Assembly (NCBI RefSeq): GCF_900104795.1 | Contig: NZ_FNTG01000001.1 | Coordinates: 992,001-1,056,000, forward strand | DNA: 64,000 nt | Direction of reading: 5' to 3' | Origin: Burkholderia sp. WP9 | Lineage (GTDB): Bacteria > Pseudomonadota > Gammaproteobacteria > Burkholderiales > Burkholderiaceae | In this document: positions 1 to 42,475 of the stretch, piece by piece | How the letters are laid out: every line of letters starts with the position of its first letter | Numbering within the stretch: the first letter of the stretch is position 1 | Made by a program: the position numbers and the translations under genes | The notes under the pieces: generated by a model | Seen by the model: only the letters and a program-made list of their open reading frames with translations | Databases searched by the model: none | Told to the model about the DNA's origin: nothing

Positions 1-2
1 AC

Positions 3-8437: not shown

Positions 8438-8451
8438 TTGAGCTTGATCAA
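8438..8451. promoter_or_regulatory. FNR/ANR-type site between clpG and usp
   Basis: TTGAG-CTTG-ATCAA, nine of ten defined bases of the FNR consensus TTGAT-N4-ATCAA. On the minus strand a CACAAT -10 at 8411-8416 begins 21 bp from the site edge, which is class II spacing, so it most likely activates clpG. No good -10 is seen toward the plus-strand usp gene. Confidence 0.65.
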
Positions 8452-8695
8452 GCGTTGCCGCGTCGTGAATCCGGGGTGGGCCGGTGGCCCGGCATGCGAA
8501 CCGCCGCGCGGCGTGATACGCGCATGCGGTCGATGCCGCTTTTGCATGCGCCTTCGCGCTTCCCGCGCGCAATGCGATTGCTTGACGCAGGTCAGGCCGA
8601 CAGAGCCATTCGCGCCGATCATCCATCTAATCTGCAGCGATGGACAGTATCAAGACGTCGAGCGGGGGTTCTGCAACGTCTACGAGGAGCCGGTC

Positions 8696-9172
8696 ATGTA
8701 TCAGAAGATCGTCGTGGCTCTGGATGGCAGCGAGTCGTCCAGATGGGCGCTGTATGAAGCGCTCGAATTTGCTCAGCTGACGCAAGCGTGGCTTCACGCG
8801 GTGTACGTCGTCAATCCCTGGTGCGTGTCGCGCTACGCGGGCTATTTCAATGCCGAACAGCTTCGTAACGTGCTGCGCGAAGACGGCCGTCTCGCGCTCG
8901 ACGAAGCGCGCCGGGCCATGGCCGAGCGCGGCGTGCCCGGCGACACCGAGATCGAGGAGACAGAGAATGCAGCGGACGATATCCCGCATTGCCTCGCCCG
9001 TTGCGTGCAGCGCCAGGGCGCCGGCCTGGTGGTGATGGGCACGCAAGGCCGGCACGGCATAGGAAGGTTGTTGCAGGGCAGCGTTGCGGAAACGTTCTTG
9101 CGGAGCGCTCACGTTCCGGTGCTGCTTGTCAGGACTCCACGCGATCAGGACGAGATACCGTCGGGGCTGTAA
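8696..9172 (+). CDS. Universal stress protein, single domain
   Basis: 158 residues, one Usp fold. It begins [18 protein letters not shown] and carries the ATP-binding signature [15 protein letters not shown] (G-2x-G-9x-G-S), so it is expected to bind ATP, like UspFG-type proteins. An insert around residues 38-55 ([17 protein letters not shown]) is typical of oxygen- and starvation-induced Usps in this genus. The start is fixed by GAGGAG at 8684-8689. It is divergent from clpG with an FNR-type site between them. Confidence 0.9.
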
Positions 9173-9233
9173 AAAGGACGCCGGCGGCCGGGCGTCAGCG
9201 GCCGTCGCCGCCACGCCCAAGCTCTCAATGCCA

Positions 9234-9887
9234 CTAGTGCTGGATCGGACTGAAGCCGACCGTCTGCGCGAGAATCGGCAGTTCGTCTTCGTTGAGCGAC
9301 AGCGCGGTCGCGAGCAGTTGCGCATTGATCCAGCCGCGGATCACGCAGGCGAGCCCCGCCGACGCACAATACAGCGAGACGTTCTGCGCGATCGCTCCGG
9401 CCGTCACGGCGGAAAACCGCTCGCGCTGCTGCGCGGGCATGTCCAGTAAGCGCGACGTGCGAACTACGTAGACGAGGTCGAGCGGCGCCTCGCCGACGAA
9501 ATCCTGGTAGCCGGTCTGCCCGCGCGCGTCGATGGCATGTTTGAGAACCAGTTGATGGTTCGGCGCGTCGTACCGGTACACGCCGTTTTGCAGTGCGGCG
9601 TAGATGTCGATTTCGTTGAACGCGTGCGGTGAGGGCGCGGTGCGGCCGCCGGTTGCGGGCCGGTTGATGCCGTCGGCGGCCCAGAGCAACTCGCCCAGCA
9701 CCGTGGGCGGCAATGCTGTCGGCGCGAACGATCGGCAACTCGCGCGCTGCGCGAAGGCGGTCATCAGCGGCACGCCGGTGTGCAATTCGGGCTTGGGCAG
9801 CGTAATGACAGCGGGAGTTTCGCCGGTGGCGAGCGGCGGCCGCAGGAGAGGCGCGGCCTGGTACGCAAGGAGTGGCATGTCGGTCAT
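9234..9887 (-). CDS. Nitroreductase-family (SagB/ThcOx-like) flavoprotein
   Basis: 217 residues; FMN-binding nitroreductase fold. Motifs: QRASCRSFAPTALPPTVLGELLWAA at the N-terminus (RxS..F flavin-phosphate contact) and SAVTAGAIAQNVSLYCASAGLACVIRG in the middle, followed by the C-terminal TVGFSP. Related to SagB-type dehydrogenases that stand alone, outside peptide clusters. The substrate is unknown; a redox role in low oxygen is plausible. The start is supported by GGAG eight bases upstream. An FNR-type site lies 98 bp upstream. Confidence 0.82.
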   Translation of the reverse strand: MTDMPLLAYQAAPLLRPPLATGETPAVITLPKPELHTGVPLMTAFAQRASCRSFAPTALPPTVLGELLWAADGINRPATGGRTAPSPHAFNEIDIYAALQNGVYRYDAPNHQLVLKHAIDARGQTGYQDFVGEAPLDLVYVVRTSRLLDMPAQQRERFSAVTAGAIAQNVSLYCASAGLACVIRGWINAQLLATALSLNEDELPILAQTVGFSPIQH

Positions 9888-10223
9888 ATCGGACTCCGTT
9901 TAATTGCGCCGAGGGTGGCCGTGGCACCGCCACGCTGCCCACGACAAGTGCCATTCCACGTTAGTCCGAAATCTCCGCTGCCGATTGATACAGATCAGGC
10001 GAAGCAGGTCCCTGCTTGCAGAGACGCTCGCGGGCAATAACGCCCATGCCTGTTGTGCAAAGACGCGACACGGATCGCGTCGATCCGGTCGAGTCCCGCT
10101 GCGTCGAGCAGCGCATTGCCATGCTGCGCTGGACGAACATGAACGAGAGTCCGCGCAGTTCAATGGGCAGCGCGCGCCAGCATCGGGCGCGCAAGCGCAC
10201 GAGCGAATGCGCCATCACGGCAT
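9888..10223. other. Non-coding gap upstream of the nitroreductase gene
   Basis: About 336 bases between the nitroreductase start and the end of the next minus-strand gene. It holds the FNR-type site at 9985-9998. The open frames here lack ribosome binding sites and family features; I see no gene. Confidence 0.5.
9985..9998 (-). promoter_or_regulatory. FNR/ANR-type site upstream of the nitroreductase gene
   Basis: TTGAT-ACAG-ATCAG: nine of ten defined positions match TTGAT-N4-ATCAA. It lies 98 bp upstream of the minus-strand ATG at 9887. The best -10 at class II distance is only TAACGT (9958-9963), 3/6. Confidence 0.6.
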
Positions 10224-10529
10224 TTAAAGGCCGTGGGTCGTTTCATCGATCGATTGCTTGCGCTTGGCGCTCGGTTGCGCCGATGCGCCGTCGAGGGCGT
10301 CCAGTTTGGCGAGCAGCGCTGACGCCCGCGCGCCTATCGGGCTCTGCGCGTCGGTTTGGGCCGCCGCGGACTCGATACGCGCTCGCCAGTAGGCCGGCTG
10401 GAAAACAAAGTGAGCGGAGCGCGGCGCTTCACACTGGAGTAGCCGTTCGAGTTGCCCGATCATCGAACCGATATGGGCAAGGTCTCGTTCATTGGAATCG
10501 ATTCGAGCCATGTGCGTGACGGGCCCCAT
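10224..10529 (-). CDS. Hypothetical protein, helical, 101 aa
   Basis: No family recognised. The sequence is mostly amphipathic helix: a conserved-looking start (MARIDSNERDLAHIGSMIGQ from residue 7), a middle with FVFQPAYWRARIE, and a charged tail. An alternative ATG at residue 7 (position 10511) gives 95 residues; neither start has a clear RBS. Reality is supported by an upstream FNR-type site at 10656-10669 with a TATGCT -10 at 10628-10633, giving a leader of roughly 90-110 nt. Confidence 0.6.
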   Translation of the reverse strand: MGPVTHMARIDSNERDLAHIGSMIGQLERLLQCEAPRSAHFVFQPAYWRARIESAAAQTDAQSPIGARASALLAKLDALDGASAQPSAKRKQSIDETTHGL

Positions 10530-10655: not shown

Positions 10656-10669
10656 TTGATCGCCGTCAA
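10656..10669 (-). promoter_or_regulatory. FNR/ANR-type site upstream of the 101-aa gene
   Basis: TTGAT-CGCC-GTCAA: the left half-site is perfect and the right has 4/5. On the minus strand TATGCT (10628-10633) starts 22 bp beyond the site, exactly class II spacing. The same TATGCT hexamer occurs at equal spacing from the site at 23935. Confidence 0.62.
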
Positions 10670-10875: not shown

Positions 10876-10889
10876 TTGACGTGTATCAA
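10876..10889 (+). promoter_or_regulatory. FNR/ANR-type site upstream of the tandem Usp operon
   Basis: TTGAC-GTGT-ATCAA, nine of ten consensus positions. GAGAAT at 10911-10916 (4/6 to TATAAT) lies 21 bp downstream, fitting a class II promoter with a transcript start near 10924 and a leader of about 45 nt to the ATG at 10968. Confidence 0.68.
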
Positions 10890-10967: not shown

Positions 10968-11921
10968 ATGAGCACAACGCACCTTGGCGGTCATGCCATT
11001 CACTCAATCCGACGCATCCTCGTGGCTGTGGACACTTCGCCGGAGTCAGCGCGCACAGCGGCGTATGTGTGTCACCTGAAGCTGCCCGGCGCGCGGGTCC
11101 GCGTGGTGAGTGTCGCCGAAAATCCCCGCACCCTGTTGCCGCTCGGGTCGATGACGGATGGCGAGCTGCAGCTTGCACGCGCCGAACTTGCCCGCGACGC
11201 GGGTGACGCCGTGGCCCACGCAAAAAGTATATTCGCGGATGCCGGCATCGACGTCGAGTCGGACGTCGTGGAAATTTCGCGGCAAGGCGGCTATACCGCT
11301 AACGCATTGATCGATGCCGCGGCGCAATGGCAGGCGGATCTGCTCGTCGTGGGCGCGCGTCAGCATCACGGTATGTTGCGCTGGATCGAAGGTACGGTTT
11401 CCGAATTCGTCACCACCCAGGCACCCTGTTCGATTCTCGTTGTGCCGGCCAGTTACGAAACGGAGATCCAGTCGTCGCCGCGCCGGATCCTGTTCGCGCT
11501 GGATGGAAGCGCCGCGTCGCGCGACGCGTTGCATTTCGGGCTTCAACTCGCCACACCCGAGGCCCGCCTTCGCGCCGTCTATGTGATAGATCGCGCCGTC
11601 CGGCTAACCGATATCGTGCCGATCCGCATGCTCGAGGAGGCGTTCGTCGAAGAAGGAAAAGTGATTCTGGCCGCGGCAGCGAAGGTCTTTGCCGAATTGC
11701 CGAATCAGGCTGAGACCACGGCGGTCGAAACGGCCCCCGCACGTGACGACGTCGCGCACGCGATCATCCGCGACGCGCAACAGTGGCACGCGGACCTGGT
11801 CGTCGTCGGCACCCATGGGCGGCGCGGCGTCGCGCGCTGGTTTCTCGGCAGCGTGGCCGCGCGCACCGCGCGTCTCGCCGGCACGCCTTTACTGCTGGCG
11901 CGACCGGGCCACGAAACGTGA
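10968..11921 (+). CDS. Tandem-domain universal stress protein
   Basis: 317 residues made of two Usp domains (about 15-155 and 165-317), like UspE. Domain 2 has a complete ATP signature, GTHGRRGVARWFLGS. In domain 1 the equivalent is GARQHHGMLRWIEGT, which lacks the second glycine of G-2x-G and may not bind ATP. The ATG at 10968 is preceded by GGGGA. It is the first gene of a likely operon with the exported protein and P-type ATPase that follow, controlled by the FNR-type site at 10876. Confidence 0.88.
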   Translation: MSTTHLGGHAIHSIRRILVAVDTSPESARTAAYVCHLKLPGARVRVVSVAENPRTLLPLGSMTDGELQLARAELARDAGDAVAHAKSIFADAGIDVESDVVEISRQGGYTANALIDAAAQWQADLLVVGARQHHGMLRWIEGTVSEFVTTQAPCSILVVPASYETEIQSSPRRILFALDGSAASRDALHFGLQLATPEARLRAVYVIDRAVRLTDIVPIRMLEEAFVEEGKVILAAAAKVFAELPNQAETTAVETAPARDDVAHAIIRDAQQWHADLVVVGTHGRRGVARWFLGSVAARTARLAGTPLLLARPGHET

Positions 11922-12055: not shown

Positions 12056-12544
12056 ATGTCGATCTTTAACTCACACGCGCTGCGCACCGCCGTTGCATTC
12101 GGGTTTCTTGTCCTGAGTGCCGCCGTTGCCGGGCAATCACTGCCCGAGGCGGTCAGCCGTGACGGCGTGCTGTACATGACGGGCGGCATCGGCGAGGACG
12201 ACGCGAAAGCCTTTCGCGCACTCGCGCCTCGCTACAGCCTGCGCATGATGTTTACCACGGCTGCGGGCAACTATCTCTCCGATGTGGATGTGACGATCGC
12301 AAGCGCATCGGGGCGCGCTGTCCTCGACACCCGCACCGAAGGGCCGTTCCTGTTCGTCATGCTGCCGGCCGGACGCTATCGTATCGTCGCACATGCCGGG
12401 AGCACGGAGATCGGCAAGACAGTCGACGTGCCGCGCCGCGGCGGGGCGGATCTGCACATCGTGTTGCAGGAACGTGCCACCGGCAATGCGCGGACCAACT
12501 GTGCGCATTGCCGTGCACCCATGCGCGGCCAGAGCGAACCCTGA
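12056..12544 (+). CDS. Exported protein with carboxypeptidase-regulatory-like beta domain
   Basis: 162 residues. A signal peptide is clear (about 1-26, ending SAAVAGQ). The mature part reads as one beta-sandwich of the carboxypeptidase regulatory-like/transthyretin-like type: LRMMFTTAAGNYLSDVDVTIAS, then LPAGRYRIVAHAGSTEIGKTVDVP. The tail contains CAHC. Two bases separate its stop from the P-type ATPase start, so the pair is probably co-translated. Function unknown; a periplasmic partner of the ATPase is one possibility. Confidence 0.72.
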   Translation: MSIFNSHALRTAVAFGFLVLSAAVAGQSLPEAVSRDGVLYMTGGIGEDDAKAFRALAPRYSLRMMFTTAAGNYLSDVDVTIASASGRAVLDTRTEGPFLFVMLPAGRYRIVAHAGSTEIGKTVDVPRRGGADLHIVLQERATGNARTNCAHCRAPMRGQSEP

Positions 12545-12546
12545 TC

Positions 12547-15039
12547 ATGGCGACGCAAGGCGCGACATCCGACGTGCCGGCGTCCGCCGTGCCTGCGCGG
12601 CATGTGGCGGGTGGACTGACGCACGCGGAGGTCCTGGCATTGCAGGTGCGGCACGGCCGCAATGTGATCACGCGGGGCAATCGCCATCTCTGGTGGAGCA
12701 CCGTGCGCGATGCGTTCACCGAGCCGATGTTCCTGCTGCTGCTCAGCGCGAGCGGCCTGTATGGCCTGATCGGCGACATGACGGAGGCATCGACGCTGCT
12801 CGCCCTGGTCGTTGCCGTGCTGGTACTGACCATTGTCCAGAGCCATCGGACGGCGAGCGTGCTCGAAGCGCTGCGTGATCTGTCGGCGCCGCGAGCGCAG
12901 GTATTGCGCGACGGCAAGCGGGAATACGTATCGGCGGCGGAATTGGTGCCCGGCGATCTTGTCATTATCGAGGAAGGGGCGAAGGTGCCGGCCGACGGTG
13001 CGGTAACGGAAGCCCACGAACTGAGCGTCGACGAATCGCTGCTCACCGGCGAGTCCGTCGCCGTCGAGAAGTTTGCCGGTTCATCCGGCGAATCGCCCGC
13101 AGACCCGTCGCGGAGCTGCCTGTTTTCAGGGTCGATGGTGGTGCGGGGTCAGGGCCGCATGTACGTCACGGCGACGGGCGCGCAGACCGAGCTTGGCCGG
13201 CTCGGCGCGAGCCTTGCCGAAGTGAGCGAGCCACCTTCACCCTTGCAGGTCGAGATGCGCGGCTTCGTCAGGCGGTTTGCGACGCTCGCGGTGATCATCT
13301 GTGTGCTGCTCGTCTTCGCCTATCGCTGGCGCATGGGCGGCTGGATACCGGGTCTGCTGGCCGGCATTACGCTCGCGATGGGCATTTTGCCCGAAGAGCT
13401 GCCGGTGATATTCACCGTCTTCATGGCGCTGGGCGCGCGCCGGATCGCGAGGGAGGGCGTGCTGACACGGCGTCTGAGTGCCATCCAGACGCTCGGGCAA
13501 ACCTCGGTGCTATGCGTCGACAAGACGGGCACGCTGACCCAGAACCGTATGTCCGTGCGCGTGCTGTATGCACGCGGCGAAGAGCTATGGCTGAAGGACG
13601 GCGCGGTCAAGATCGGCCCGCAGTTTCATGAACTGCTGGAGTACCTCGTGCTCGCGAGCGAAATCGAGCCGCTCGATCCCATGGAGCGCGCGTTCCACGA
13701 GACGGGCCGCTCCTGTCTGGCCGGCACGGACCGGCTGCATGAACAATGGTCGCTCGTGCAGGAATACGCATTGACGCCTGAACTGCCCGCCATGTCGCAT
13801 GGATGGGAGAGCCCCGAACTCGATCATCGGCTGGTGGCGTGCAAGGGTGCGCCTGAGGCGATCTGCTCGCTGTGCCACCTCGAAGCCGGTGAGGCGCGAG
13901 CGCTGATGGAGCGCGCCACGCATATGGCGGAAAGCGGGTTACGCGTGCTCGGCGTGGCGCGGGCGCGGCATTGCGGCGAAACGTGGCCTGATCAGCAGCA
14001 CGACTTCGCGTTCTCGCTGGTGGGGCTCGTCGGACTGCTCGACCCGGTGCGCCCGGAGGTGGAAGGCGCGGTTGCGCAGTTGAAGGTCGCGGGCGTGCGG
14101 GTCGTGATGATTACCGGCGACTATCCGTCGACGGCGCGGGCGGTCGCGGCGGAAGTCGGCATCGACAGCGGCCGCGTCGTAAGCGGCGCCGACCTTGCCG
14201 GCATGGACGATGCCGCGTTGCAACGCGCGATCGTCGACGCAAGCGTGTTCGCGCGGGTCAGGCCGGAGCAGAAGCTGAGGCTCATCGACGCGTTCAGGCA
14301 TGCGGGCGAGGTCGTCGCGATGACGGGCGACGGCGTCAATGATGCGCCCGCGCTGAAAGCCGCGCATATCGGCATCGCGATGGGCACGCGGGGCGCGGAG
14401 GTTGCGCGCGAGGTGGCGTCGCTGGTGTTGCTGCGTGACGATCTGACGCCGATCGTGTCGGCCCTGCGGCTCGGCCGGCGCATCTACGAGAATCTGAAGA
14501 TGGCGGTGGCATACACGATCGCGGTTCATATTCCGATGATCGCCGCCGCGACCCTTCCCGTGGTGGCGGGCTGGCCGCTCATGCTCGCGCCGGTGCACAT
14601 CGTGTTCCTCGAAATGATCATCACACCCGTTTGCTCGATTGTCTTTGAAAACGAACCGGAGAGCCGCTCGCTCATGCGTGATCCGCCGCGGCGAATCGGC
14701 GAGCGGCTCATGTCCAACCGCATCCTGGGGCTGAGCATTGCGCTCGGGTGCGTAGCCGCCCTGATCGTCGTAGGCGTGTATGCGGCACTGCTCGGGCGCG
14801 GATTCGATCCGCTCGACGCTCGCACGGCCGGCTTCCTGCTGCTCGTGGCATGCAACGTCGGGCTGATGTTCGCCGTGCGCGCGTTGCCGCACCGGCCGTC
14901 GGCGCGCCGCGCACGCCAGACGAACTTTTATGGGTGGGCCGTCGTGTTGCTTACGACGCTCGCTGCGGGCGTGTTGATGACCTGGCCGGCGCTTGCCCGG
15001 CTGTTCGCTCTGCGTCCTGTTCTTGCCGTATGGCTGTGA
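12547..15039 (+). CDS. P-type cation-transporting ATPase, substrate unknown
   Basis: 830 residues with full P-type ATPase machinery: a short cation-ATPase N domain, TGES in the actuator domain, phosphorylation site D325-KTGTLTQN, and the hinge motif TGDGVNDAPAL. The membrane motif is PEELP, not the PEGLP of Ca2+ pumps, PEMLP of Mg2+ pumps or CPC of heavy-metal pumps, so the ion cannot be named. About ten membrane helices. Related proteins occur in low-oxygen or dormancy gene sets (CtpF in mycobacteria is a functional parallel, not shown to be an orthologue). Confidence 0.9.
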   Translation: MATQGATSDVPASAVPARHVAGGLTHAEVLALQVRHGRNVITRGNRHLWWSTVRDAFTEPMFLLLLSASGLYGLIGDMTEASTLLALVVAVLVLTIVQSHRTASVLEALRDLSAPRAQVLRDGKREYVSAAELVPGDLVIIEEGAKVPADGAVTEAHELSVDESLLTGESVAVEKFAGSSGESPADPSRSCLFSGSMVVRGQGRMYVTATGAQTELGRLGASLAEVSEPPSPLQVEMRGFVRRFATLAVIICVLLVFAYRWRMGGWIPGLLAGITLAMGILPEELPVIFTVFMALGARRIAREGVLTRRLSAIQTLGQTSVLCVDKTGTLTQNRMSVRVLYARGEELWLKDGAVKIGPQFHELLEYLVLASEIEPLDPMERAFHETGRSCLAGTDRLHEQWSLVQEYALTPELPAMSHGWESPELDHRLVACKGAPEAICSLCHLEAGEARALMERATHMAESGLRVLGVARARHCGETWPDQQHDFAFSLVGLVGLLDPVRPEVEGAVAQLKVAGVRVVMITGDYPSTARAVAAEVGIDSGRVVSGADLAGMDDAALQRAIVDASVFARVRPEQKLRLIDAFRHAGEVVAMTGDGVNDAPALKAAHIGIAMGTRGAEVAREVASLVLLRDDLTPIVSALRLGRRIYENLKMAVAYTIAVHIPMIAAATLPVVAGWPLMLAPVHIVFLEMIITPVCSIVFENEPESRSLMRDPPRRIGERLMSNRILGLSIALGCVAALIVVGVYAALLGRGFDPLDARTAGFLLLVACNVGLMFAVRALPHRPSARRARQTNFYGWAVVLLTTLAAGVLMTWPALARLFALRPVLAVWL

Positions 15040-15072: not shown

Positions 15073-15086
15073 TTGACCTCGATCAA
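15073..15086 (+). promoter_or_regulatory. FNR/ANR-type site upstream of the first BON gene
   Basis: TTGAC-CTCG-ATCAA, nine of ten consensus positions. CATAGT at 15106-15111 (gap 19) or TAGTCT at 15108-15113 (gap 21) could serve as -10. The coding start at 15230 is about 110 nt beyond the predicted transcript start. Confidence 0.65.
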
Positions 15087-15229: not shown

Positions 15230-15880
15230 ATGAAGTCGGACAGTCAATTGAAGCAGGAAGTCGAGGACGAACTGATGAGCAGTCCGGCCGTCGACGCAAA
15301 CGGGATAGGTGTTGCCGTGGTCGACCGTGTGGTCACGATCACCGGACACGTTCCAAACTATGCGGCGAAAGTCGCGGCCGAAAAATGCGCGATGCGAATC
15401 GCCGGTGTCGTCGCGGTGGTAGTCGGTATCGACGTGAAACTGCGCGAATCCGAGCGGCGTACCGACGAGGACATCGCCTTGAGCGTGCGCGCGGCCCTGG
15501 ACTGGATCGCCGGCCTCGAAGAGCATGCGATCAGGATCAAGGTCGAGAAAGGCTGGGTGACATTGAGTGGCGAAGTCGAGGACGGTTACCGCAGCCACAT
15601 CGCCGAGAAAAATGTCGTCCATATGCGTGGTGTGACGGGCGTGACGAATGAGATCAGGATCCGCGGTTCGGCTTCTCCGCTCGACATTGAGTACAGCATC
15701 CGCAAAGCCATTCAACGCCATACCGATCGCGAGTTGAAGCATGTGGGCGTCGAAGTCGACGACGGCAAGGTAACCTTGTCGGGGCGTCTCAGTTCGGGCG
15801 TCGAGCGCTCCATCGTGACGGGCGCGGCGCGCTCGACGCCGGGTGTGACGGCCGTTGTCGACCGTCTGGTGGTCGGTTGA
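15230..15880 (+). CDS. Triple BON-domain protein A
   Basis: 216 residues with three consecutive BON domains (about 3-68, 76-143, 147-215), each ending in the typical G-V-x-x-V-x-(N/D)-x-(L/I) strand. No signal peptide, so it is cytoplasmic unlike OsmY, and close in layout to the second copy at 24139 (also 216 residues, also starting MKSD). BON domains are thought to bind phospholipid or membranes. Start fixed by GGAGGAG at 15216-15222; an FNR-type site lies 144 bp upstream. Confidence 0.88.
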   Translation: MKSDSQLKQEVEDELMSSPAVDANGIGVAVVDRVVTITGHVPNYAAKVAAEKCAMRIAGVVAVVVGIDVKLRESERRTDEDIALSVRAALDWIAGLEEHAIRIKVEKGWVTLSGEVEDGYRSHIAEKNVVHMRGVTGVTNEIRIRGSASPLDIEYSIRKAIQRHTDRELKHVGVEVDDGKVTLSGRLSSGVERSIVTGAARSTPGVTAVVDRLVVG

Positions 15881-15904: not shown

Positions 15905-16912
15905 TCATGGTTGTCGTGAGCGGTTGTCGAGCGCGGCGTGTGCTTCATGCCAACGGACGATGGCGGACCAGATATCCGCCGCCGTCTCGCAGAAAATGAA
16001 TAGTGCGGCGTCCTGTGGCGCGATCATGCCTTCGCTGATCAGAAACTCGAAATTGATCGCGCGGCGCCAGAACGATTCGCCGACCAGCACGACGGGCAGC
16101 CGCCGGATCTTGTTCGTTTGCAGCAGGGTCAACACTTCGAACAACTCGTCACAGGTTCCAAAGCCGCCCGGAAAAAACACGGCGGCTTGCGCGCGTTCCA
16201 GCAGATGGAGCTTGCGAATGGCGAAATAGTGAAGCTTGAAGCAGAGTTCAGGTGTGAGGTAGGGATTGGGTTCCTGCTCACGCGGCAACGCGATATTCAA
16301 GCCGATGCTCGGCGCCTTGAGTTCGTACGCACCTCGATTCGCTGCTTCCATGATGCCGGGGCCGCCGCCGGTGACGACGGCGAGCGACGACAGCGCTCCC
16401 GTACACCGCGCGCTGCCGACAATACGGCCGAATTCGCGCGCGATCCCGTAGTAGCGACTGCGCTTGAGCAGTTGCTTCGCGACTTGCAAGGCGCTCTCGC
16501 TCTCGGGGTCGCCGGGCCGGCTTTCGAGCGTCCGCCGCGCTTCCTCGACCCGGCGGCGGGCGGCGGCCGGCGCGATGATCCGTGTGCTGCCGTACACCAC
16601 GATCGTGTGCTGTATCGCATGGCGCTGCAACGTCTCCTCAGTCTTCCAGTAGTCGAGTTGCAGACGGATGCCGCACATTTCCGGGCGCCGCAGAAAGGCG
16701 AGGTCTTCGTCCGCTTCCAGGTAGGTTGGGCTTTCGATCATATGGCGCACGCGCGCCGAACGTTCGGAAGGGGCGTCCGCGTGGAGACGCCGCGCTCTTC
16801 GCACGGATTCGGCCACGGCGGGCGCGTCCTGACACTGCGCGCACGCGGGGTCCGCACGATGCTCGACCACCGTGCCGACACGCGTTGCCTCGTTTTTATG
16901 GATGCTTGTCAT
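15905..16912 (-). CDS. LOG-family nucleotide phosphoribohydrolase
   Basis: 335 residues. The Rossmann core carries both LOG signatures, GGGPGIMEAANRGA and PGGFGTCDE, which bind nucleotide phosphate and catalyse cleavage of the base from a nucleoside 5'-monophosphate. An N-terminal extension of about 110 residues is not part of the core fold. The actual substrate (cytokinin-type or ordinary NMPs) is open. The ATG at 16912 has GGGAG upstream. It follows the lipocalin gene by 34 bp and probably belongs to its operon. Confidence 0.85.
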   Translation of the reverse strand: MTSIHKNEATRVGTVVEHRADPACAQCQDAPAVAESVRRARRLHADAPSERSARVRHMIESPTYLEADEDLAFLRRPEMCGIRLQLDYWKTEETLQRHAIQHTIVVYGSTRIIAPAAARRRVEEARRTLESRPGDPESESALQVAKQLLKRSRYYGIAREFGRIVGSARCTGALSSLAVVTGGGPGIMEAANRGAYELKAPSIGLNIALPREQEPNPYLTPELCFKLHYFAIRKLHLLERAQAAVFFPGGFGTCDELFEVLTLLQTNKIRRLPVVLVGESFWRRAINFEFLISEGMIAPQDAALFIFCETAADIWSAIVRWHEAHAALDNRSRQP

Positions 16913-16946
16913 GCGCGCTCCCGCCCGCTTCGTTACCGCAAAACTT

Positions 16947-17792: not shown

Positions 17793-17806
17793 TTGACGTG
17801 TGTCAA
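17793..17806. promoter_or_regulatory. FNR/ANR-type site between lipocalin operon and DHH gene
   Basis: TTGAC-GTGT-GTCAA, eight of ten consensus positions and itself a perfect inverted repeat at the outer half-sites. It is centred between divergent genes. On the plus strand AGTAAT (17834-17839) lies 27 bp away, slightly beyond class II spacing; no clear minus-strand -10 is seen. Confidence 0.55.
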
Positions 17807-19644: not shown

Positions 19645-19697
19645 GGCATCACCGCTTCGATCCACAATCGGCCCATCTTGCGAGGATAGATTGTCAT
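19641..19697 (-). CDS. Candidate 18-aa leader peptide of the PRTase gene
   Basis: A short ORF, MTIYPRKMGRLWIEAVMP, directly preceded by GGAGGGAGACGGGAC, one of the better ribosome binding sites in the region. Its stop overlaps the PRTase ATG in an ATGA. The PRTase ATG has no RBS of its own, so this ORF may exist to deliver ribosomes to it. Confidence 0.5.
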   Translation of the reverse strand: MTIYPRKMGRLWIEAVMP

Positions 19698-19740
19698 GTC
19701 CCGTCTCCCTCCGAATGCGCGATACTGCGGCACTCGTCGC

Positions 19741-20673: not shown

Positions 20674-20710
20674 GGTCGGCCAGTCTCCTTCGATTCGGCG
20701 CGGCGAGCGG

Positions 20711-23137: not shown

Positions 23138-23270
23138 GTGCTACTCCTTTGCGGCGGCCAGATACCGATATGCCGGCAGACGTGAACCAACCGTGAACCA
23201 GGCGCGAGCCAGGCGCGAACGTCGGCCGCGGCCGGCGAGATGGGCCGGGCTTGTCGGCCCTGGCCGGGCG

Positions 23271-30582: not shown

Positions 30583-30584
30583 CC

Positions 30585-33346: not shown

Positions 33347-33402
33347 TGTGTGCTCCCGGTTGTTCAGGTCCAGTGATTGAAGCAAGATTCGCGTATTGGC
33401 GA

Positions 33403-34539: not shown

Positions 34540-34574
34540 GATGTTCTTTTCCCTTGAAACTCGGTGGCGGCGAA

Positions 34575-36179
34575 TCAGGCGACCGTGTTGGTCGGCAACG
34601 GCTGGTTCAGCGGCTGATTCGGCGGCTGTTGTTCATGGTGATAGCGGCCCGTATGCAGCGACGAGGGACCGAGCCGCGCATACTTGAACATCAGCATGAT
34701 CTCGATGATGAACAGCACCGTGTAGAACACCACGAAGCCCCCGATACTCAGATACAGGTCGCCTGCCGTCAGGCTCGAGGCCGACAGGCTGGTGGGCAGA
34801 ATGCCCGCGATGGTCCACGGCTGGCGGCCCACTTCCGCGACAATCCAGCCGAATTCCGCCGCGAGCCACGGCAGCGGAATCGCCCACACGGCCCAGCGCA
34901 GGAACCAGCGGCGCTTCTCCAGCAGCAGCGAGCGCTGCGCGCAGAACCAGAACGCCAGCACGAAGGTGGCGAGGAACAGGATGCCGAGGCCCACCATCAG
35001 GCGGAACGAGAAGAACACGGGCGCCACGGGCGGGATCGTTTTCTTTGCGGCCTGGGTGATCTGGTCGGGCGTGGCGTCGGTGACGTTCGCGGTGAACTGC
35101 TTGAGCATCAGGCCGTAGCCGAGGTCCTGCTTGTGCGCGTCGAAGGCGGCTTTGGCTTCGTCGGTGACGTCGCCCTGTTTCAGCTTCTGCAGCGCGGCGT
35201 AGGCGAGCATGCCGTTCCTGATGCGCGCCTCGTTGCGCACCATCAGGTCCTTCAGGCCGACCACGGGTTCGTCGAGTGAGCGCGTCGCGATCAGGCCGAG
35301 CGCGTAGGGAACCCGGATCGCGTAGTCGGTGCGTTCTTCCTTCTGGTTCGGAATCCCGATGATCGTAAACGGTGCCGGAGCGGGCGCGGTTTCCCATTCG
35401 GATTCGATCGCGGCCAGTTTGACCTGCTGGACTTCGCCGGTGCGGTAGCCGGATTCGTCGCCGAGCACGATCACGCACAGCGTGGAGGCGAGGCCGAACC
35501 CGGCGGCGATCGCGAACGAGCGCAGCGCGAATTCGGTGTCGCGGCGCTTGAGCAGATACCACGACGACACGCCGAGCACGAACATCGAGGCCGTCACGTA
35601 GCCCGCCGAGACAGTGTGCACGAACTTGACCTGCGCGACCGGATTGAACAGCACGGAGAAGATGCTGTCGAGCTCCATGCGCATGGTCTGGTAGTTGAAG
35701 GTGGCGCCGACCGGATTGTTCATCCAGCCGTTGGCCACCAGAATCCACAGCGCCGAGAGGTTCGAGCCGAGCGCGACGAGGAACGTGACACCCACGTGCT
35801 GGACCTTCGAGAGACGCTTCCAGCCAAAGAAGAACAGGCCGACGAAGGTGGACTCGAGGAAGAACGCCATCAGGCCTTCGACGGCGAGCGGCACGCCGAA
35901 AATATCGCCCACGTAATGCGAGTAGTACGACCAGTTGGTGCCGAACTGGAATTCGAGCGTGAGGCCGGTGGTGACGCCCATGGCAAAGTTGATGCCGAAC
36001 AGCTTGCCCCAGAACTGGGTCATGTCCTTGTAGATCTGCTTGCCGGTCATCACGTAGACGGATTCCATGATGACGAGCAGCCAGGACAGGCCGAGCGTGA
36101 GCGGCACGAACAGGAAGTGATAGAGCGCCGTGATGGCGAACTGGAGGCGCGACAGTTCTACGACTTCGCTAACGGGCAT
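34575..36179 (-). CDS. cydA: Cytochrome bd ubiquinol oxidase subunit I
   Basis: 534 residues. Haem ligands are visible: H21 in [13 protein letters not shown] (E. coli H19), the His in [12 protein letters not shown], and the Met in [11 protein letters not shown]. The GRQPW motif is intact ([15 protein letters not shown]). The quinol-binding Q-loop is long, as in E. coli (long-loop class). High-affinity O2 reduction at low oxygen. The start at 36179 is chosen for AAGGTGATC upstream; a GTG three codons earlier is possible. It overlaps cydP by 11 bases. Confidence 0.96.
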
Positions 36180-36429
36180 GTTGATCACCTTGGGACGGAT
36201 GCGAGGCAGGCACGGACAGCAGCGCCTGCGCGACTTGCTCAGGCGGGAGCGACATGTGCTCTGCCTGTGGATGGTTGAAGAACGCGTATTTGAGCGCCAT
36301 CAGCAGTGCCAGTTTGACGACAAGCACAATGACGATGTCCCGCCTGAAAGTTGGTCTCGACACCCAGCCGGCGAGTCGCGCGCGCAGGACGGGGCGAGGC
36401 GGATTCCTGTCGTTCAGCGTGATGGTCAT
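36169..36429 (-). CDS. cydP: Cytochrome bd accessory small subunit CydP
   Basis: 86 residues, a single membrane helix (about 31-51, DIVIVLVVKLALLMALKYAFF) preceded by a basic region and followed by the short HPQAEHMSLPPEQVAQALL segment. This pattern matches the small CydP proteins encoded ahead of cydAB in many proteobacteria. The 3' end overlaps cydA by 11 bases, so translation is probably coupled. First gene of the cyd operon; an FNR-type site lies 167 bp upstream. Confidence 0.85.
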   Translation of the reverse strand: MTITLNDRNPPRPVLRARLAGWVSRPTFRRDIVIVLVVKLALLMALKYAFFNHPQAEHMSLPPEQVAQALLSVPASHPSQGDQHAR

Positions 36430-36595: not shown

Positions 36596-36609
36596 TTGAG
36601 CGAAGTCAA
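36596..36609 (-). promoter_or_regulatory. FNR/ANR-type site upstream of the cyd operon
   Basis: TTGAG-CGAA-GTCAA, eight of ten positions. It lies 167 bp before cydP. The -10 at class II distance is poor (GAAGAT, 3/6), so the transcript start is uncertain. Confidence 0.55.
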
Positions 36610-37204: not shown

Positions 37205-38335
37205 TCAATCGAGCGATTTGCGAAAGCGCAATACGCTTAGCGTCAGCATGACTGCACCGAGCGCTGCCATTGCCGCGAACTGCGGCCATAGCACGGCGAA
37301 TCCGGTGCCTTTCAGAAAAACCGAGCGCAGCACGACGAGAAAGTAACGCAGTGGGTTGATCAACGTAATCCATTGCAGGACTTTGGGCATCGCGGCGATA
37401 GGAAACGCAAACCCCGACAGAATGAAAAGCGGATTGATCAGAAAGAAATTGAGCGCGAACGCCTGTTGCTGCGTGCGCGAGAAGGTGGACAGCAGCAAAC
37501 CGAGACCCAATGCCGCGAACAGAAACAGCGATGCGCCGACCAGCATGACGAGCGGGTTGCCGACGAACGGAACCCGAAACCATCCTATGCCTACCGCCGT
37601 CACGAGGGCAACGTCGACCAGACCGATCAGGAAGAACGGCACGGTTTTGCCGAGGATGAACTCGACCGGCCTGATCGGGCTGACCATGATCTGCTCCAAC
37701 GTGCCGATCTCGCGTTCGCGAACCACGGCAAACGCCGTGAGGCTGACCACCTGCATCAGCGTGAGCGTGCCGACCACGCCTGGAATGAAGAACCAGCGAT
37801 CGTCGATCGTGTCGTTGTACCAGGGGCGCTCACGCAGCGTCACGGCGACCTCGGTGCGGGCGGGGCCCGTATAGTTCGACCACGGTTCGCTCATCTGATC
37901 GTTCTGGAACTGCGTGACGATCTGGCTGACGTAGCCGAGCGCAATGAGCGCGGTGTTGGAGTTGGTGCCGTCCACGACGACCTGCAGCGGCGCGCTCTGG
38001 CCGTTGCCGAGATGCTGCGCGAAGCCGGCATGGATGACGAGCGCCATCGTCGCCTTGTCGCTATCTATGTCATGCGTGATATCGCGGTCCGTGCCGGCGT
38101 TATCGACCACGTCGAATTTACCGGTGGCGACGAAGTGCGAGACGAGGTTGCGGCTCGCCTGGCTGCGGTCCAGGTCGAGCACGGCAAGGCTCACATGATT
38201 GACGGTGAAAGTCGCGGCGTAGCCGTAGATGATCACCTGCAGCAACAGCGGCACGACCAGCCGGAACATCGCCCACCGGTCGCGCTTGAGTTCGAGAAAC
38301 TCCTTCATCAACATGACCTGCAGACGGTCGAACAT
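37205..38335 (-). CDS. ABC-2 type permease 2
   Basis: 376 residues of the YbhR/YhhJ type: one N-terminal membrane helix (about 25-45), a large periplasmic domain (about 46-180), then five helices; the EREIGTLEQIMVSPIRPVEFILGK amphipathic loop is the family hallmark. Last gene of a five-gene exporter operon; it starts six bases after the preceding stop. Confidence 0.9.
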   Translation of the reverse strand: MFDRLQVMLMKEFLELKRDRWAMFRLVVPLLLQVIIYGYAATFTVNHVSLAVLDLDRSQASRNLVSHFVATGKFDVVDNAGTDRDITHDIDSDKATMALVIHAGFAQHLGNGQSAPLQVVVDGTNSNTALIALGYVSQIVTQFQNDQMSEPWSNYTGPARTEVAVTLRERPWYNDTIDDRWFFIPGVVGTLTLMQVVSLTAFAVVREREIGTLEQIMVSPIRPVEFILGKTVPFFLIGLVDVALVTAVGIGWFRVPFVGNPLVMLVGASLFLFAALGLGLLLSTFSRTQQQAFALNFFLINPLFILSGFAFPIAAMPKVLQWITLINPLRYFLVVLRSVFLKGTGFAVLWPQFAAMAALGAVMLTLSVLRFRKSLD

Positions 38336-38341
38336 GATGGG

Positions 38342-39478
38342 CTAGTCCAGATGTTTGCGGAACGCCCGGGCGGCGATCCAGATGATGGCGAGCGCATACA
38401 CGGCCAGCGCGAGAATCGGCACGGCGAGATCGGAAAGGGTGCTGCCTTTGAGGAATACGGCCCGCAGGATGGTGATGTAATAGCGGGCGTAGACGAGCAG
38501 CGTGGCAAGGCGAATGGGCGCGGGCATCTGGTCGATGGCGAAGGTGTAGCCTGACAGCATGCTGGTCGGCAGCATCGTCAGCAGCAGCGCAACCTGGCTT
38601 GCGCCGAGCTGGCTGCGAATGTGAACCGACACCAGATAGCCGATGCCAAGCACGACCAGCGTAAACAGCGCGGTCGTGACGATCAGGGTGCCGACGCTGC
38701 CGCGCAACGGCACGTGAAACCAGTAAACCGTGCTGAGCAGACAGAATGCGGCATTGACGAGTCCGATCACGAAGTACGGAAGCAGTTTGCCGAGCATGAC
38801 TTCGAGCGCGGTGACCGGCGTGGAGATGAGTTGCTCCATCGTGCCGCGCTCCCACTCGCGCGAGATGGTCAACGACGTCAGCTGCGCGCCGACCAGCGCG
38901 AGAATGACCGCGACGACGCCCGGGATAATGAAGTTACGGCTGTCGAGCGTCTCGTTGAACCAGACCCGCGGTTCGAGATCGACCAGACCGACGGTTTGCG
39001 GCCGAATGCCGTGGCTTTGCCGCCAGCGCAACTGGAATTCAGCCGTAATGCGCGCGATCACGTTCTGGGCGTAGCCGATTGCAATGTTGGTCGTATTGGC
39101 GTCCGTCGCATCGAACACGGTTTGCACCGAGGCGGTACCCGTCGTGGTGAACACGCGCGAGAAATCGACGGGGATCGTGACGACGCCGGCACACGTGCCG
39201 CGATCCATCGCGTCGCGCAATGCGCGTTCGTGGGTCACGTTCCGAACCGCGAGGAACCAGTGCGACGACACGAAGTCCTGCACCAGTTCACGGCTCAACT
39301 GGCTGTGTTCCTCGTCGTTGATACATAGCGGCACCTGCCGGATATCGAGGCTGACGCCGTAGCCGAGCAGCACCATCTGCAACAGCGGCATCAGCAGCGC
39401 AATGGCGAGACTGCGCGGATCGCGCCAGATCTGCAGCGTTTCCTTGAAGGCCATCGCCAGCAGCCGCCGCAGGCTCAT
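38342..39478 (-). CDS. ABC-2 type permease 1
   Basis: 378 residues, homologous in layout to the neighbouring permease: N-terminal helix (about 23-42), periplasmic domain, then helices with REWERGTMEQLISTPVTALEVMLGK. Two permeases probably form a heterodimer, as with YbhS/YbhR. It overlaps the upstream ATPase gene by four bases. Confidence 0.9.
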   Translation of the reverse strand: MSLRRLLAMAFKETLQIWRDPRSLAIALLMPLLQMVLLGYGVSLDIRQVPLCINDEEHSQLSRELVQDFVSSHWFLAVRNVTHERALRDAMDRGTCAGVVTIPVDFSRVFTTTGTASVQTVFDATDANTTNIAIGYAQNVIARITAEFQLRWRQSHGIRPQTVGLVDLEPRVWFNETLDSRNFIIPGVVAVILALVGAQLTSLTISREWERGTMEQLISTPVTALEVMLGKLLPYFVIGLVNAAFCLLSTVYWFHVPLRGSVGTLIVTTALFTLVVLGIGYLVSVHIRSQLGASQVALLLTMLPTSMLSGYTFAIDQMPAPIRLATLLVYARYYITILRAVFLKGSTLSDLAVPILALAVYALAIIWIAARAFRKHLD

Positions 39479-40425
39479 GGTGAGTGCACTCCCTTATCCG
39501 CGTGCGTGACCAGTTGGACGAACACATCTTCGAGGCTGGCCCGGATGGCGCGTACGGCGATAAACTCGATATGCCGTCCTGCAAGAAACGGCTGAAGCAC
39601 GGTTTCAGGCACGCCCGGGTGCATCAGCACGTGCAGCCGGTCGCCAAAGATCGCGGCGTCGATTACTTCGGGCGCCTCGCGCAGCGCGGCGAGAGCCGCG
39701 CCAGGCGGCGCGCACACCAGTTCGAACAGATTGCCGCCGAGATTGTGTTCGCGCAGCTCATTCGGGCTGCCGATCGCCACGAGATGGCCCGCGTCGATCA
39801 GCGCGATGCGGTGGCAGTATTCCGCCTCGTCCATGTAATGCGTAGAGACCAGCACCGTCACGCCGCCCGCGGCGAGGCCGTGAATCAGATCCCAGAAGCG
39901 GCGGCGCGCCTCGGGCTCGACGCCCGACGTCGGTTCGTCGAGAAACAGCACGGGCGGACGGTGCAGATTCGCACAGCCGAGTGCGAGCCGCTGCTTCCAG
40001 CCGCCCGCGAGCGTTCGCACGAGAATATTTTCACGCCCCTCGAGTCCCGCGGTCGAAATGGCGAGCCGGATACGCTCGGCGATGTCGTGTCGCGGAACCC
40101 GGTAGATGCCACAGAAAAAGCGCAGGTTTTCGTAGCAGGTCAGGTCGCCGTACAGCGAGAACTTCTGCGACATATAGCCAATGTGCGAGCGCAGCGCCTC
40201 GGCCTGGGTGCCAATGTCGTAGCCCGCCACCGAAGCGCGCCCCGCACTGGGCGAAAGCAGCCCGCACAGCATGCGGATGGTGGTCGACTTGCCCGCGCCG
40301 TTCGGCCCGATGAAGCCGACGACTTCGCCCCTGGCGATGGACAGGTCGAGCCGGTCGACCGCCGTGAACTTGCCAAAGCGCTTGGTCAGGCCGATTGCCT
40401 CGACGACGGGAGCCGCGGCGCTCAT
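39475..40425 (-). CDS. ABC transporter ATPase 2
   Basis: 316 residues. Walker A GPNGAGKST (40-48), signature LAGGWKQRLALG (LSGG replaced by LAGG), Walker B PVLFLDEPTSGVEP. The C-terminal 80 residues are the regulatory extension seen in drug/Na+ exporters of the DrrA/YbhF type. Overlaps both neighbours by four bases. Confidence 0.92.
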   Translation of the reverse strand: MSAAAPVVEAIGLTKRFGKFTAVDRLDLSIARGEVVGFIGPNGAGKSTTIRMLCGLLSPSAGRASVAGYDIGTQAEALRSHIGYMSQKFSLYGDLTCYENLRFFCGIYRVPRHDIAERIRLAISTAGLEGRENILVRTLAGGWKQRLALGCANLHRPPVLFLDEPTSGVEPEARRRFWDLIHGLAAGGVTVLVSTHYMDEAEYCHRIALIDAGHLVAIGSPNELREHNLGGNLFELVCAPPGAALAALREAPEVIDAAIFGDRLHVLMHPGVPETVLQPFLAGRHIEFIAVRAIRASLEDVFVQLVTHADKGVHSP

Positions 40426-41366
40426 GTCGGGCTTCCCGACCCGACGAGCGCGACGAACACGTCTTCGATGCCCGGCTCGATGGAAGTGATGGTTGCGTTT
40501 GCAATGGCGCGTGTGGCAAGCCGCTCCTGCAATTCCGGCAGACGGCGCGCGGCCTCGTCAACGCGCACGTGCACGCGGTCGCCCATCAGCAACGCGCTCA
40601 GCACGCCGGGCGCATCCACGAGGGCGTCGTGAACCGCGCGCGGGTCTGCCGCGGCGATGGCGAACAGGGCACCCGGCATGGCCTGCTTCAGCCGCGCCGG
40701 CGTGTCGCACTGGCGGATCTGCCCGGTATGCAGCAGCGCGAGCCGCGAGCAGCGTTCGGCTTCGTCCATATATGCGGTGGACAGCACGATCGTGACACCG
40801 CTTTCGCGCAGGTTGTACAGGATCGCCCAGAAATCGCGCCGCGACACCGGGTCCACGCCCGTGGTCGGCTCATCCAGCAGCAGCACGCGGGGCGTGTGAA
40901 TCAACGCGCACACCAGCCCGAGTTTCTGCTTCATGCCGCCCGATAGTTGACCGGCGAGACGATCGCGGAATGGCACGAGGCCGGCGGCCTCGAGAAGTTC
41001 GCCGCTGCGGGTCCGATTGGCTTTGCGCGATACCCCGAAGAGTTCGCCGTAGAAGAAAATGTTCTCGGCGACGGTCAGGTCTTCGTACAGGCCGAAACGC
41101 TGGGGCATATAGCTGAGGGCAGCCTTTGCGCGTTCCGGCGCCGCTATCACGTCGATATTTTCCAGCGAGATCTGGCCGGCGTCGGGCCGCAGCACGCCAG
41201 CCAGCATGCGCATGATGGTCGTTTTGCCCGCACCGTCCGGCCCGACCAGGCCGAAGATTTCCCCGCGTTCGATGTCGAAGCTGACACCCCGCACCGCCTG
41301 CACGGCGCCGAAACTGCGCACCAGGTCGTGCGCGCGGATGGCCGCCGCTGCCGGGTCGGTGCTCAT
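40422..41366 (-). CDS. ABC transporter ATPase 1
   Basis: 314 residues. Walker A GPDGAGKTT (42-50), signature LSGGMKQKLGL, Walker B RVLLLDEPTTGVDP. In E. coli YbhF the two ATPase domains are fused in one polypeptide; here they are two genes. Overlaps the HlyD gene by four bases. Confidence 0.92.
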   Translation of the reverse strand: MSTDPAAAAIRAHDLVRSFGAVQAVRGVSFDIERGEIFGLVGPDGAGKTTIMRMLAGVLRPDAGQISLENIDVIAAPERAKAALSYMPQRFGLYEDLTVAENIFFYGELFGVSRKANRTRSGELLEAAGLVPFRDRLAGQLSGGMKQKLGLVCALIHTPRVLLLDEPTTGVDPVSRRDFWAILYNLRESGVTIVLSTAYMDEAERCSRLALLHTGQIRQCDTPARLKQAMPGALFAIAAADPRAVHDALVDAPGVLSALLMGDRVHVRVDEAARRLPELQERLATRAIANATITSIEPGIEDVFVALVGSGSPT

Positions 41367-42352
41367 TTGCCCGCTGCCAGCAAAGCGATGGACGCATCGG
41401 CCGGCATGCCCGGCAGCAGTTCGTGCGTCGGGTTGTCGATATCGATACGGATCCGGTAGACGAGCGTCACGCGCTCGGCGTGCGTCTCGACGGTTTTGGG
41501 CGTGAACTCGGCCTGCGGGGAAATGAAACTGATGCGCCCTTGGTAGCGCTTGCCGGGGTAGGTGTCGGTCGTCACGGTGGCGGCTTCGTTGAGGCGAACT
41601 TTGCCGATATCGGGCTCGTTCACATACGCGCGCAGCCAGACGTGATCGAGTTCATCGAGCGTAACGATCGCGACGCCCGATCCCGCGAGCTGCCCGAGTT
41701 CCGCTTCGCGTACTGCGATGACGCCGTCGAACGGCGCGCGCAGCTCGGTGTAGGAGAGCATCACTTCGTCGAGCTTGAGCTTCGCCGCGGCGGCGGCCTG
41801 ATTGGCGCGCGCGAGCGTGATGTTGTTGCTTGCCACTTCCACCAGCGCCTTGTCGTGCGCGAGGGCCGCGGCGGATTGCCGTTCGGCGGTGAAGGCGAGG
41901 TCACGTGCCTGACGCGGAATCGCGTTGCCTTTCACCAGGATTTCCGCTCGCCCCAGGTCGAGCTGTTTTTCGCTGAGATCGAATTGATCGCTGACGACGT
42001 TGTGACGTGCCGCCGCCAAGGTGCTCTCATTGGCGCTGATCTGCGCCGTGGCAACTTGCAGGTTGGTCTGGTCGATTTCCGTCTGCCGCCGATACAGGCG
42101 ATCGTCCACGCGCGCGAGCACGGTGCCGCGCTTGACGTAAGCGCCTTCGTCGAATGGCAGGTAGACAATCGGCGCCTGGACCTGCGTGAAGCTCAGGACA
42201 CTCTCGTGAGCCTCGATGTTGCCGGACACGATGATATGGGTCGTATCATGATGGGAGCCGAACAGCACCGGCCAACGCCACACCACTACGCCGGCCGCGG
42301 CAAGAGCGACTAGCGCGAGCAGGGCCTGCATCCGGTGTTTCGATATGGCCAT
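41363..42352 (-). CDS. HlyD-family periplasmic adaptor
   Basis: 329 residues. N-terminal membrane anchor (about 10-28), biotinyl-lipoyl half-domains (SFTQVQAPIVYLPFDEGAYVKRGTVLARVD and SYTELRAPFDGVIAVREAELG) flanking a coiled-coil hairpin (about 85-200), then beta-barrel. With two ATPases and two permeases it forms a YbhGFSR-like exporter; cargo unknown. First gene of the operon; the FNR-type site is 110 bp upstream. Confidence 0.92.
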   Translation of the reverse strand: MAISKHRMQALLALVALAAAGVVVWRWPVLFGSHHDTTHIIVSGNIEAHESVLSFTQVQAPIVYLPFDEGAYVKRGTVLARVDDRLYRRQTEIDQTNLQVATAQISANESTLAAARHNVVSDQFDLSEKQLDLGRAEILVKGNAIPRQARDLAFTAERQSAAALAHDKALVEVASNNITLARANQAAAAAKLKLDEVMLSYTELRAPFDGVIAVREAELGQLAGSGVAIVTLDELDHVWLRAYVNEPDIGKVRLNEAATVTTDTYPGKRYQGRISFISPQAEFTPKTVETHAERVTLVYRIRIDIDNPTHELLPGMPADASIALLAAGK

Positions 42353-42461
42353 GGTTTTTGGTTCGGTTCAAACGCTTCCGGATGAAGAGATGCAAAACCG
42401 GAGATCGCCAGCCTGTGTATGGTGCGTCTGCTGAAGATAGAGCCGCTATCGCTCCGGCCAA

Positions 42462-42475
42462 TTGACTCAAGTCAA
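42462..42475 (-). promoter_or_regulatory. FNR/ANR-type site upstream of the exporter operon
   Basis: TTGAC-TCAA-GTCAA, eight of ten positions. On the minus strand TATCTT (42434-42439, 4/6) lies 22 bp away, class II spacing; predicted leader about 75 nt. Confidence 0.63.

Follow-up and report, generated by a model that had tools for sequence, protein, structure and literature searches.

What ties together the universal stress protein (Usp), chaperone, BON, oxidase and exporter genes that lie side by side in Burkholderia sp. WP9? The window that we analysed is a stretch of 64,000 nt of contig NZ_FNTG01000001.1 (hereafter C1), its first base being C1:992,001, in which an original prediction, made by eye, had listed eleven 14-bp sites of the FNR/ANR type and proposed that they tie a 34-kb stress block into one oxygen-responsive regulon. 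Our analyses make it very probable that this block is the right part of a 79-kb low-oxygen survival island of the lxa type in a Paraburkholderia near P. xenovorans, with most of its transcription units placed at class II FNR promoters, the likeliest activators being an FNR protein encoded in the island together with one or both of two paralogues on contig C2. We call the host a Paraburkholderia because the nearest named relative found is P. xenovorans LB400 (L056), in which 19 block proteins find a match, in an order largely kept from the N-type ATPase to cydB. The prediction was right in substance and wrong on the extent of the block, the location of the regulator, a DHH target and the ATPase.

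A pattern search of the window recovers all eleven sites where they had been read by eye. Eight of them match TTGAYNNNNRTCAA exactly and three (8438, 9985 and 36596) with one mismatch each; at that tolerance the window holds 13 matches, compared with a mean of 3.84 in 100 shuffles (s.d. 2.25, maximum 12). The two matches beyond the original list start at 8582 and 20790. The former, with a −10 hexamer at a gap of 21 bp and conservation in LB400, looks like a real twelfth site; the latter, within the pps coding region, is probably a chance match.

Such sites were expected to be denser here than elsewhere, and this is what a scan of the whole genome with the strict pattern (exact matches) reveals, the block being 47 times denser than the rest. 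There are 51 strict sites in 9.02 Mb, with positions given for 50 and the remaining one falling beyond the block by its place in the order. Fifteen of them lie within C1:955358-1034475 (79,118 bp), where 0.45 would be expected, and no equally long stretch in 20,000 random genomes held more than seven. All 15 are intergenic according to our own gene calls, intergenic DNA making up 12.2% of the block. The relaxed pattern TTGAN6TCAA occurs 126 times in the genome (51 for its reversed control) and 19 times in the block, once in a coding region. Seven of the strict sites stand left of the window and the cluster starts 37 kb left of it, so that the extent of 34 kb first claimed has to be replaced by 79 kb, of which the window contains the right part alone. 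Could an AT-rich or repeat-rich stretch have produced these palindromes by chance? The genome does contain 13 matches to the reversed strict pattern, but in its relaxed form this pattern is absent from the block against the 19 true matches, and the GC content of the window stays at 60-67% in 4-kb steps, which leaves this explanation a negligible probability. Chance clustering is excluded by the shuffles, the reversed-pattern control and the random-genome simulation. Two small clusters were observed in other parts of the genome, one of three strict sites at C1:799994-803865 (L025), where a three-BON gene and a gene for a D12-type DNA methyltransferase are also found, and one of four strict sites in 4.6 kb at C2:656062-660624 (L027), in the neighbourhood of genes for a P-type cation ATPase and for AMP-binding enzymes.

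The arrangement of the sites is that of promoters. A −10 hexamer matching four of six positions had been reported 19-22 bp from the edge of eight sites; counting either side, we find one in nine of the eleven, against a background of 9.1% of 3,330 overlapping intergenic positions. This geometry was analysed over 208 unique strict-site contexts (416 sides) from this genome and its relatives, from which exact duplicates were removed and near-duplicates of related species kept. At least four of the six positions of TATAAT are matched on 18.3% of the sides at gap 21, 6.5% at gap 22 and 3.6% at gap 19, and on 0-3.4% at the remaining gaps between 0 and 73. Raw base counts, which presume no hexamer, peak at T (36%, gap position 21), A (42%, position 22) and T (45%, position 26). 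Together with the enrichment at gap 21, these peaks point to a TAnnnT −10 box and a site centred near −41.5, namely the class II arrangement, and the class II FNR spacing proposed earlier is thus upheld. FNR/ANR class II promoters of E. coli and Pseudomonas likewise combine a TTGAT-N4-ATCAA-like site near −41.5 with a −10 box; unlike them, the promoters studied here have a TAnnnT box with frequent C at position 5, and 15 of the 51 sites are gathered in one island.

A composite model trained on 169 contexts from relatives alone (132 used), some of them from related islands and hence not fully independent, yielded 24 strand-specific hits with a score of at least 10 in the block, two in the 100 kb of the region outside it and none in the reversed 180 kb. 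When hits scoring at least 8 are assigned to units with our own gene calls and a 100-bp operon rule, a predicted promoter precedes 29 of the 44 units in the block (13 of 20 for the part inside the window) versus 2 of 54 outside, some of the promoterless units possibly being operon tails. To describe the whole block as one regulon was therefore too strong, the DHH and CorA genes being among those without a predicted promoter.

Conservation could be followed in LB400 for the 7 of the 12 sites that have an orthologous gene there. In six of these, both the site (0-1 mismatch) and the −10 region align, and the sequence between them has drifted; around 17793 the site is not aligned in the global alignment, LB400 all the same carrying a strict site ~100 bp upstream of the lipocalin gene. 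These data bear on the idea that the palindromes are relics or decoys and that the block is mainly controlled by a sigma factor, response regulators or a nucleoid protein, FNR playing a minor part. The 15 of 44 units without a predicted promoter agree with it, as does the expression in air of the B. contaminans locus in passages of PMC4981469, but the retention in LB400 of 6 of 7 sites with their −10 boxes despite spacer drift, and a fixed 21-bp geometry over 208 contexts, make it improbable.

The regulator, which had been supposed to be encoded elsewhere, has a candidate inside the cluster. A CRP/FNR protein is encoded at C1:958667-959455, outside the window, with the motif CTTCSMRSIC (C-x2-C-x5-C), a fourth cysteine whose position we judge against what we take to be that of E. 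coli Fnr, and a Crp helix-turn-helix with the helix LETVSR (E-x-x-S-R). Two paralogues with the same cysteines and helix are encoded on contig C2 (C2:2367197 and C2:1448838), and a P. graminis protein 79% identical to the island FNR is annotated as Fnr. The CRP-domain search gave 21 matches, and in the 20 loci read the ETVSR helix occurs in three intact proteins and one 53-aa fragment. This fragment, at C5:95256-95411 (L039) on a 200-kb contig, retains the FNR helix-turn-helix and is a probable broken copy. Among 58 members of the genus, genomes with more FNR copies (at E ≤1e-30) tend to have a larger excess of sites (rho 0.69, no kinship correction).

The island FNR gene stands in the order alcohol dehydrogenase, FNR, receiver, LuxR-type response regulator and PAS kinase, a neighbourhood that invites another explanation, in which the sites are used by a cysteine-less regulator of the FixK/Dnr type, obeying a FixLJ-like two-component system or nitric oxide, and not by an oxygen-sensing FNR. 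FixK and Dnr bind a nearly identical box, the PAS kinase and the LuxR-type response regulator adjoin the island FNR, and FixLJ induces fixK at low oxygen in B. dolosa according to passages of PMC5234846. We nevertheless consider this explanation unlikely, given that the FNR cysteines are present in each intact ETVSR protein from the 20 loci read (for six of these loci no frame containing the motif was obtained, and a locus was lacking for one of the 21 matches) and that the kinase is a poor match to the FixL model (61.9 bits against a cut-off of 850). A cysteine-less regulator with the ETVSR helix was found in none of the 20 CRP-domain loci read. The receiver-only gene (L017:9448-9879, minus strand), upstream of fnr, overlaps the fnr start by 8 bases, and its product may pass a signal on to FNR. 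The four-gene order and the 8-base overlap are kept on plasmid pPHS1_P (L301) and, with a CHASE-domain protein instead of the kinase, on plasmid pOLGA1 (L302). These two plasmids, the first of which is typed conjugative, carry island relatives with FNR and Usp genes and have 6 and 12 strict sites, respectively, within ~41 kb each (reversed control 0). The island contains a second PAS histidine kinase gene (L018:8555-9676, minus strand), with no response regulator among the neighbours scanned. Concerning autoregulation, no predicted promoter was found before the fnr units.

With FNR as the switch, a dimeric activator of the FNR/ANR type would bind TTGAY-N4-RTCAA centred near −41.5 and recruit RNA polymerase to a degraded TAnnnT −10 box lying 21 bp away from the edge of the site. 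Activation would most likely fall to the four-cysteine FNR of the island plus one or both C2 paralogues. As oxygen falls, their iron-sulphur clusters would stay intact and allow dimerisation, turning on the island with its universal stress proteins, chaperone, BON proteins, nitroreductase, phosphoenolpyruvate (PEP) synthase, bd oxidase, exporter and N-type ATPase. The sequence directly shows the sites with their clustering, geometry and conservation, the residues of the regulator and the gene content; from these we infer DNA binding, the oxygen response and the identity of the acting FNR.

Several observations weigh against this reading. The island FNR scores 224.6, just below the cut-off of 228 of the NCBIfam Fnr subfamily, and all three FNR paralogues have one recognition helix in common, so that any of them may be the acting one. 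The correlation with FNR copies lacks a kinship correction, FNR genes and sites are both carried by islands, and three genomes devoid of copies have an excess of 3 to 17 sites. Sites 9985 and 36596 have no −10 hexamer matching at least four of six positions at gaps 19-22, and the promoterless units include fnr and the neighbouring two-component genes. Among relatives, strict sites are missing upstream of 74 of 78 DHH genes, 32 of 32 native cyd loci and 18 of 30 BON genes.

How does the island relate to known systems? The lxa (low-oxygen-activated) locus of the Burkholderia cepacia complex was reportedly described by Sass et al. 2013. The likeness to the low-oxygen locus of B. cenocepacia suggested by the original prediction is supported by gene content: by gene names, in passages on lxa (PMC4505428, PMC4981469, PMC6127331 and PMC9104464) and with part of the block proteins scanned, lxa shares with the block at least six Usp genes, Hsp20, BON, a LOG-like protein, PfkB, an FtsH-like peptidase, a P-type cation ATPase, a zinc alcohol dehydrogenase and an ABC exporter. 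In Table 2 of PMC4981469, the CRP/FNR gene of lxa lies between an alcohol dehydrogenase and a response regulator (BCAM0286-0287-0288), the same order as here; passages of that paper also list the lxa genes and describe lxa clusters that are extended and differ from strain to strain, the one of B. contaminans including PpsA, as our block does. The internal FNR gene of lxa and an FNR-box-like motif at many low-oxygen genes have already been published, and B. cenocepacia H111 is given as devoid of lxa. Unlike the published lxa list, as far as its passages go and by gene names, the island described here spans 79 kb and includes an N-type ATPase operon and a second cydPAB.

The N-type ATPase operon runs along the plus strand from the end of atpD to atpG at positions 1-5411 of the window, atpD lying at C1:990860 and the operon starting 1.1 kb left of the window. 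Pfam identifies AtpR (PF12966, 50.7 bits, cut-off 26) and, as the extra small subunit, ATPase_gene1 (PF09527, 57.8 bits, cut-off 26.6), as well as the remaining ATPase subunits in the order D-C-Q-R-B-E-F-A-G, which, like its subunit letters, we take to be that of N-type ATPases. The NCBIfam models for the ‘alternate F1F0 ATPase’ are not passed (TIGR03305 beta, 593.7 versus 752; TIGR03165 AtpR, 46.7 versus 55.5), whereas the beta subunit passes the ordinary F-type model TIGR01039 (600.4 versus 462.85), so that we base the N-type name on AtpR, on the order of the genes and on the status of second copy, another F-type copy of the genome being at C1:3712469. No site had been noticed in the ATPase part, which holds within the window; just outside its edge, however, ~1.3 kb to the left and 140 bp before atpD, there is a class II FNR-type promoter, made of a one-mismatch site at C1:990707-990720 with the −10 box TATCTT at gap 21.

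This promoter is widespread among relatives. A close relative of the operon (at least 75% identity) exists in 19 of 58 genomes of the genus, and a site with at most one mismatch precedes 15 of these 19, accompanied by a −10 box at gap 20-23 in 14. By contrast, 11 F-type copies outside this group (50-53% identical, most or all of them housekeeping) show a site in one case and a −10 box in none. Sixteen further loci of the family, 15 of them outside the genus, have a site in 12 cases and also a −10 box in eight; beyond the family, the FNR site is present in 0 of 9 class-level loci, and reversed upstream regions have a site plus −10 box in 0 of 35. The loci without a site are L253, L256, L258 and L259 in the genus and L285, L289, L291 and L300 in the family. 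In 17 of the 19 genomes the operon lies at most 60 kb from an FNR gene like that of the island or a BON-family gene (taking the best 41 FNR and 48 BON matches), for which ~4% would be expected by chance. On pOLGA1 the N-type ATPase stands beside arcDABC-type genes, Usp genes and an FNR gene; its atpD is preceded by a strict site that has TATCGT at gap 21, and the whole arginine deiminase operon, a source of ATP under anoxic conditions, is ~3 kb away.

We lean, with some reservation, towards the view that the N-type ATPase of Burkholderiaceae is oxygen-responsive, its operon being housed in lxa-type islands and activated by FNR from a class II promoter, and that it acts as an ATP-driven pump when respiration stops. 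Under such conditions it would pump protons (or ions) and keep the membrane energised at the expense of substrate-level ATP, a task that a large rotor ring would suit. According to passages of PMC5376962, the N-ATPase of B. pseudomallei has a proton-binding rotor ring of 17 c-subunits, and the biochemical properties and cellular functions of the N-type ATPase are termed largely unexplored; passages of PMC8115632 report several N-type ATPase subunits up at low oxygen in Nitrospira marina. In these passages, the enzyme is likewise a second rotary ATPase beside the housekeeping one in both organisms. The terms ‘oxygen’, ‘anaerob’ and ‘transcri’ are absent from the main text of the B. pseudomallei paper, and FNR is absent from the N. 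marina paper, whereas here a conserved FNR-type promoter goes together with island residence. Neither an FNR promoter nor residence in an lxa-type island was found in passages of the literature on the N-ATPase with FNR, Burkholderia, low oxygen or anaerobic; in the one paper found to mention N-ATPase and FNR together, FNR is the name of a funding agency and N-ATPase part of a reference title.

Which genes do the sites of the window serve, as far as the −10 box suggests? Three divergent gene pairs have separate sites. In the first, the one-mismatch site 8438-8451 (minus strand) forms a class II promoter for the ClpG-like gene, with the −10 box CACAAT and both elements conserved in LB400, and the one-mismatch site 8582-8595 (plus strand, −10 GATCAT) serves the Usp gene 8696-9172. 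The ClpG-like gene (5448-8324, minus strand) codes for a ClpG/ClpK-like disaggregase whose best NCBIfam scores, 1285.9 bits for ClpG and 1236.4 for ClpK, are both below the cut-off of 1900. In the second pair, the strict site 10656-10669 (minus strand, −10 TATGCT at gap 22) precedes a 101-aa gene (10224-10529), and the strict site 10876-10889 (plus strand, conserved in LB400) a tandem Usp gene (10968-11921) and perhaps also the following genes as far as a P-type ATPase (12056-15039). In the third, the strict site 23935-23948 (minus strand, −10 TATGCT at gap 21) faces the ppsA-side genes (18970-23744), and the strict site 24016-24029 (plus strand, −10 TATGGT at gap 22, conserved in LB400) a BON gene (24139-24789) and, perhaps, the FtsH-like gene that follows (to 27446). 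Another BON gene (15230-15880) follows the strict site 15073-15086 (plus strand), which is conserved in LB400. Counting the window's own, a strict site occurs upstream of BON genes in 12 of 30 loci, most of the 30 being paralogues at 33-55% identity. The nitroreductase gene (9234-9887) lies behind the one-mismatch site 9985-9998 (minus strand), whose −10 box matches just three of the six positions of TATAAT.

The strict site 17793-17806 (minus strand) had been assigned to the lipocalin and DHH genes; its −10 box, TATGCT at gap 21 on the minus side, faces the lipocalin and LOG-like genes (15905-17528) instead, and the DHH gene has no clear site. Nor is DHH a conserved target, since just 4 of 78 relatives have a strict site within 350 bp upstream (two of 80 loci, with short upstream regions, were dropped). 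The strict site 28968-28981, conserved in LB400, has the −10 box TACTGT on its plus side, towards the lemA/TPM genes (29108-31082), and a weaker one, CAACGT, on its minus side, where it perhaps also serves a PHB depolymerase gene (27538-28764). At the far end, the strict site 42462-42475 (minus strand, −10 TATCTT at gap 22) precedes an exporter operon (37205-42331, minus strand) identified by protein family matches as an HlyD-type adaptor, two ABC ATPases and two ABC-2 permeases. The proposed extension of the regulon to this exporter stands in part: a strict site precedes one of three orthologues besides the window's own (2 of 4 with it), none of 11 non-orthologues (of 26 such loci), and exporter genes were already in the published lxa list. 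No Rfam family at gathering score and no tRNA were found in the window.

The extension to cyd proved more intricate. The genes cydB, cydA and cydP (33403-36429, minus strand, identified by protein family matches) are a second copy, and window positions 33391-36370 are 98% identical to the native cydPAB at C1:3152351-3155330. The promoter differs from that of the native copy, and at its start cydP is similar to the island copy found in another species (G017). Gene conversion with the native copy as donor would explain this pattern, and the one-mismatch site upstream of cydP-cydA-cydB, at 36596-36609 (minus strand, weak −10), is outside the converted stretch; a degenerate site aligns with it upstream of cyd in relatives. 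A looser form, TTGAY-N6-CAA, is present between −480 and −380 of cydA in 26 of 32 loci (0 of 32 in a control stretch), which supports the extension in this form, whereas the strict pattern occurs in 0 of 32 and TTGAN6TCAA in 5 of 32. Because the degenerate site recurs at the same distance in these 26 loci, control of cyd by a protein of the CRP/FNR family is probably general in the genus. Acquisition of the site by moving into the island was considered and is ruled out in its simple form by the degenerate TTGAC-GTAW-CNCAA site of native copies at the same distance. Native cydA loci (L137-L165 and L226) have at about −430 of cydA a conserved TTGACGTAWCNCAA element, like an FNR half-site joined to what we take to be a CRP half-site on the right; it may be a CRP/FNR hybrid and not a pure FNR site. 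Elsewhere, at C2:422745 (L035), there is a strict site with no good −10 box, 178 bp upstream of a further gene for cytochrome bd subunit I.

The core idea is already known in Burkholderia; what is added here is the Paraburkholderia map, a tested geometry, the place of a regulator and, as the main addition, the promoter of the N-type ATPase. A list of sites read by eye thus becomes a promoter map that has been tested, for an island of survival genes in an aerobic soil bacterium, with a switch placed inside it. It also provides a genetic handle on the N-type ATPase, whose possible link to low oxygen has a precedent in another phylum in passages on Nitrospira marina (PMC8115632). Since relatives of the island reside on plasmids, one of them typed conjugative, the means to survive anoxia may be passed on as a unit together with the switch that governs them.

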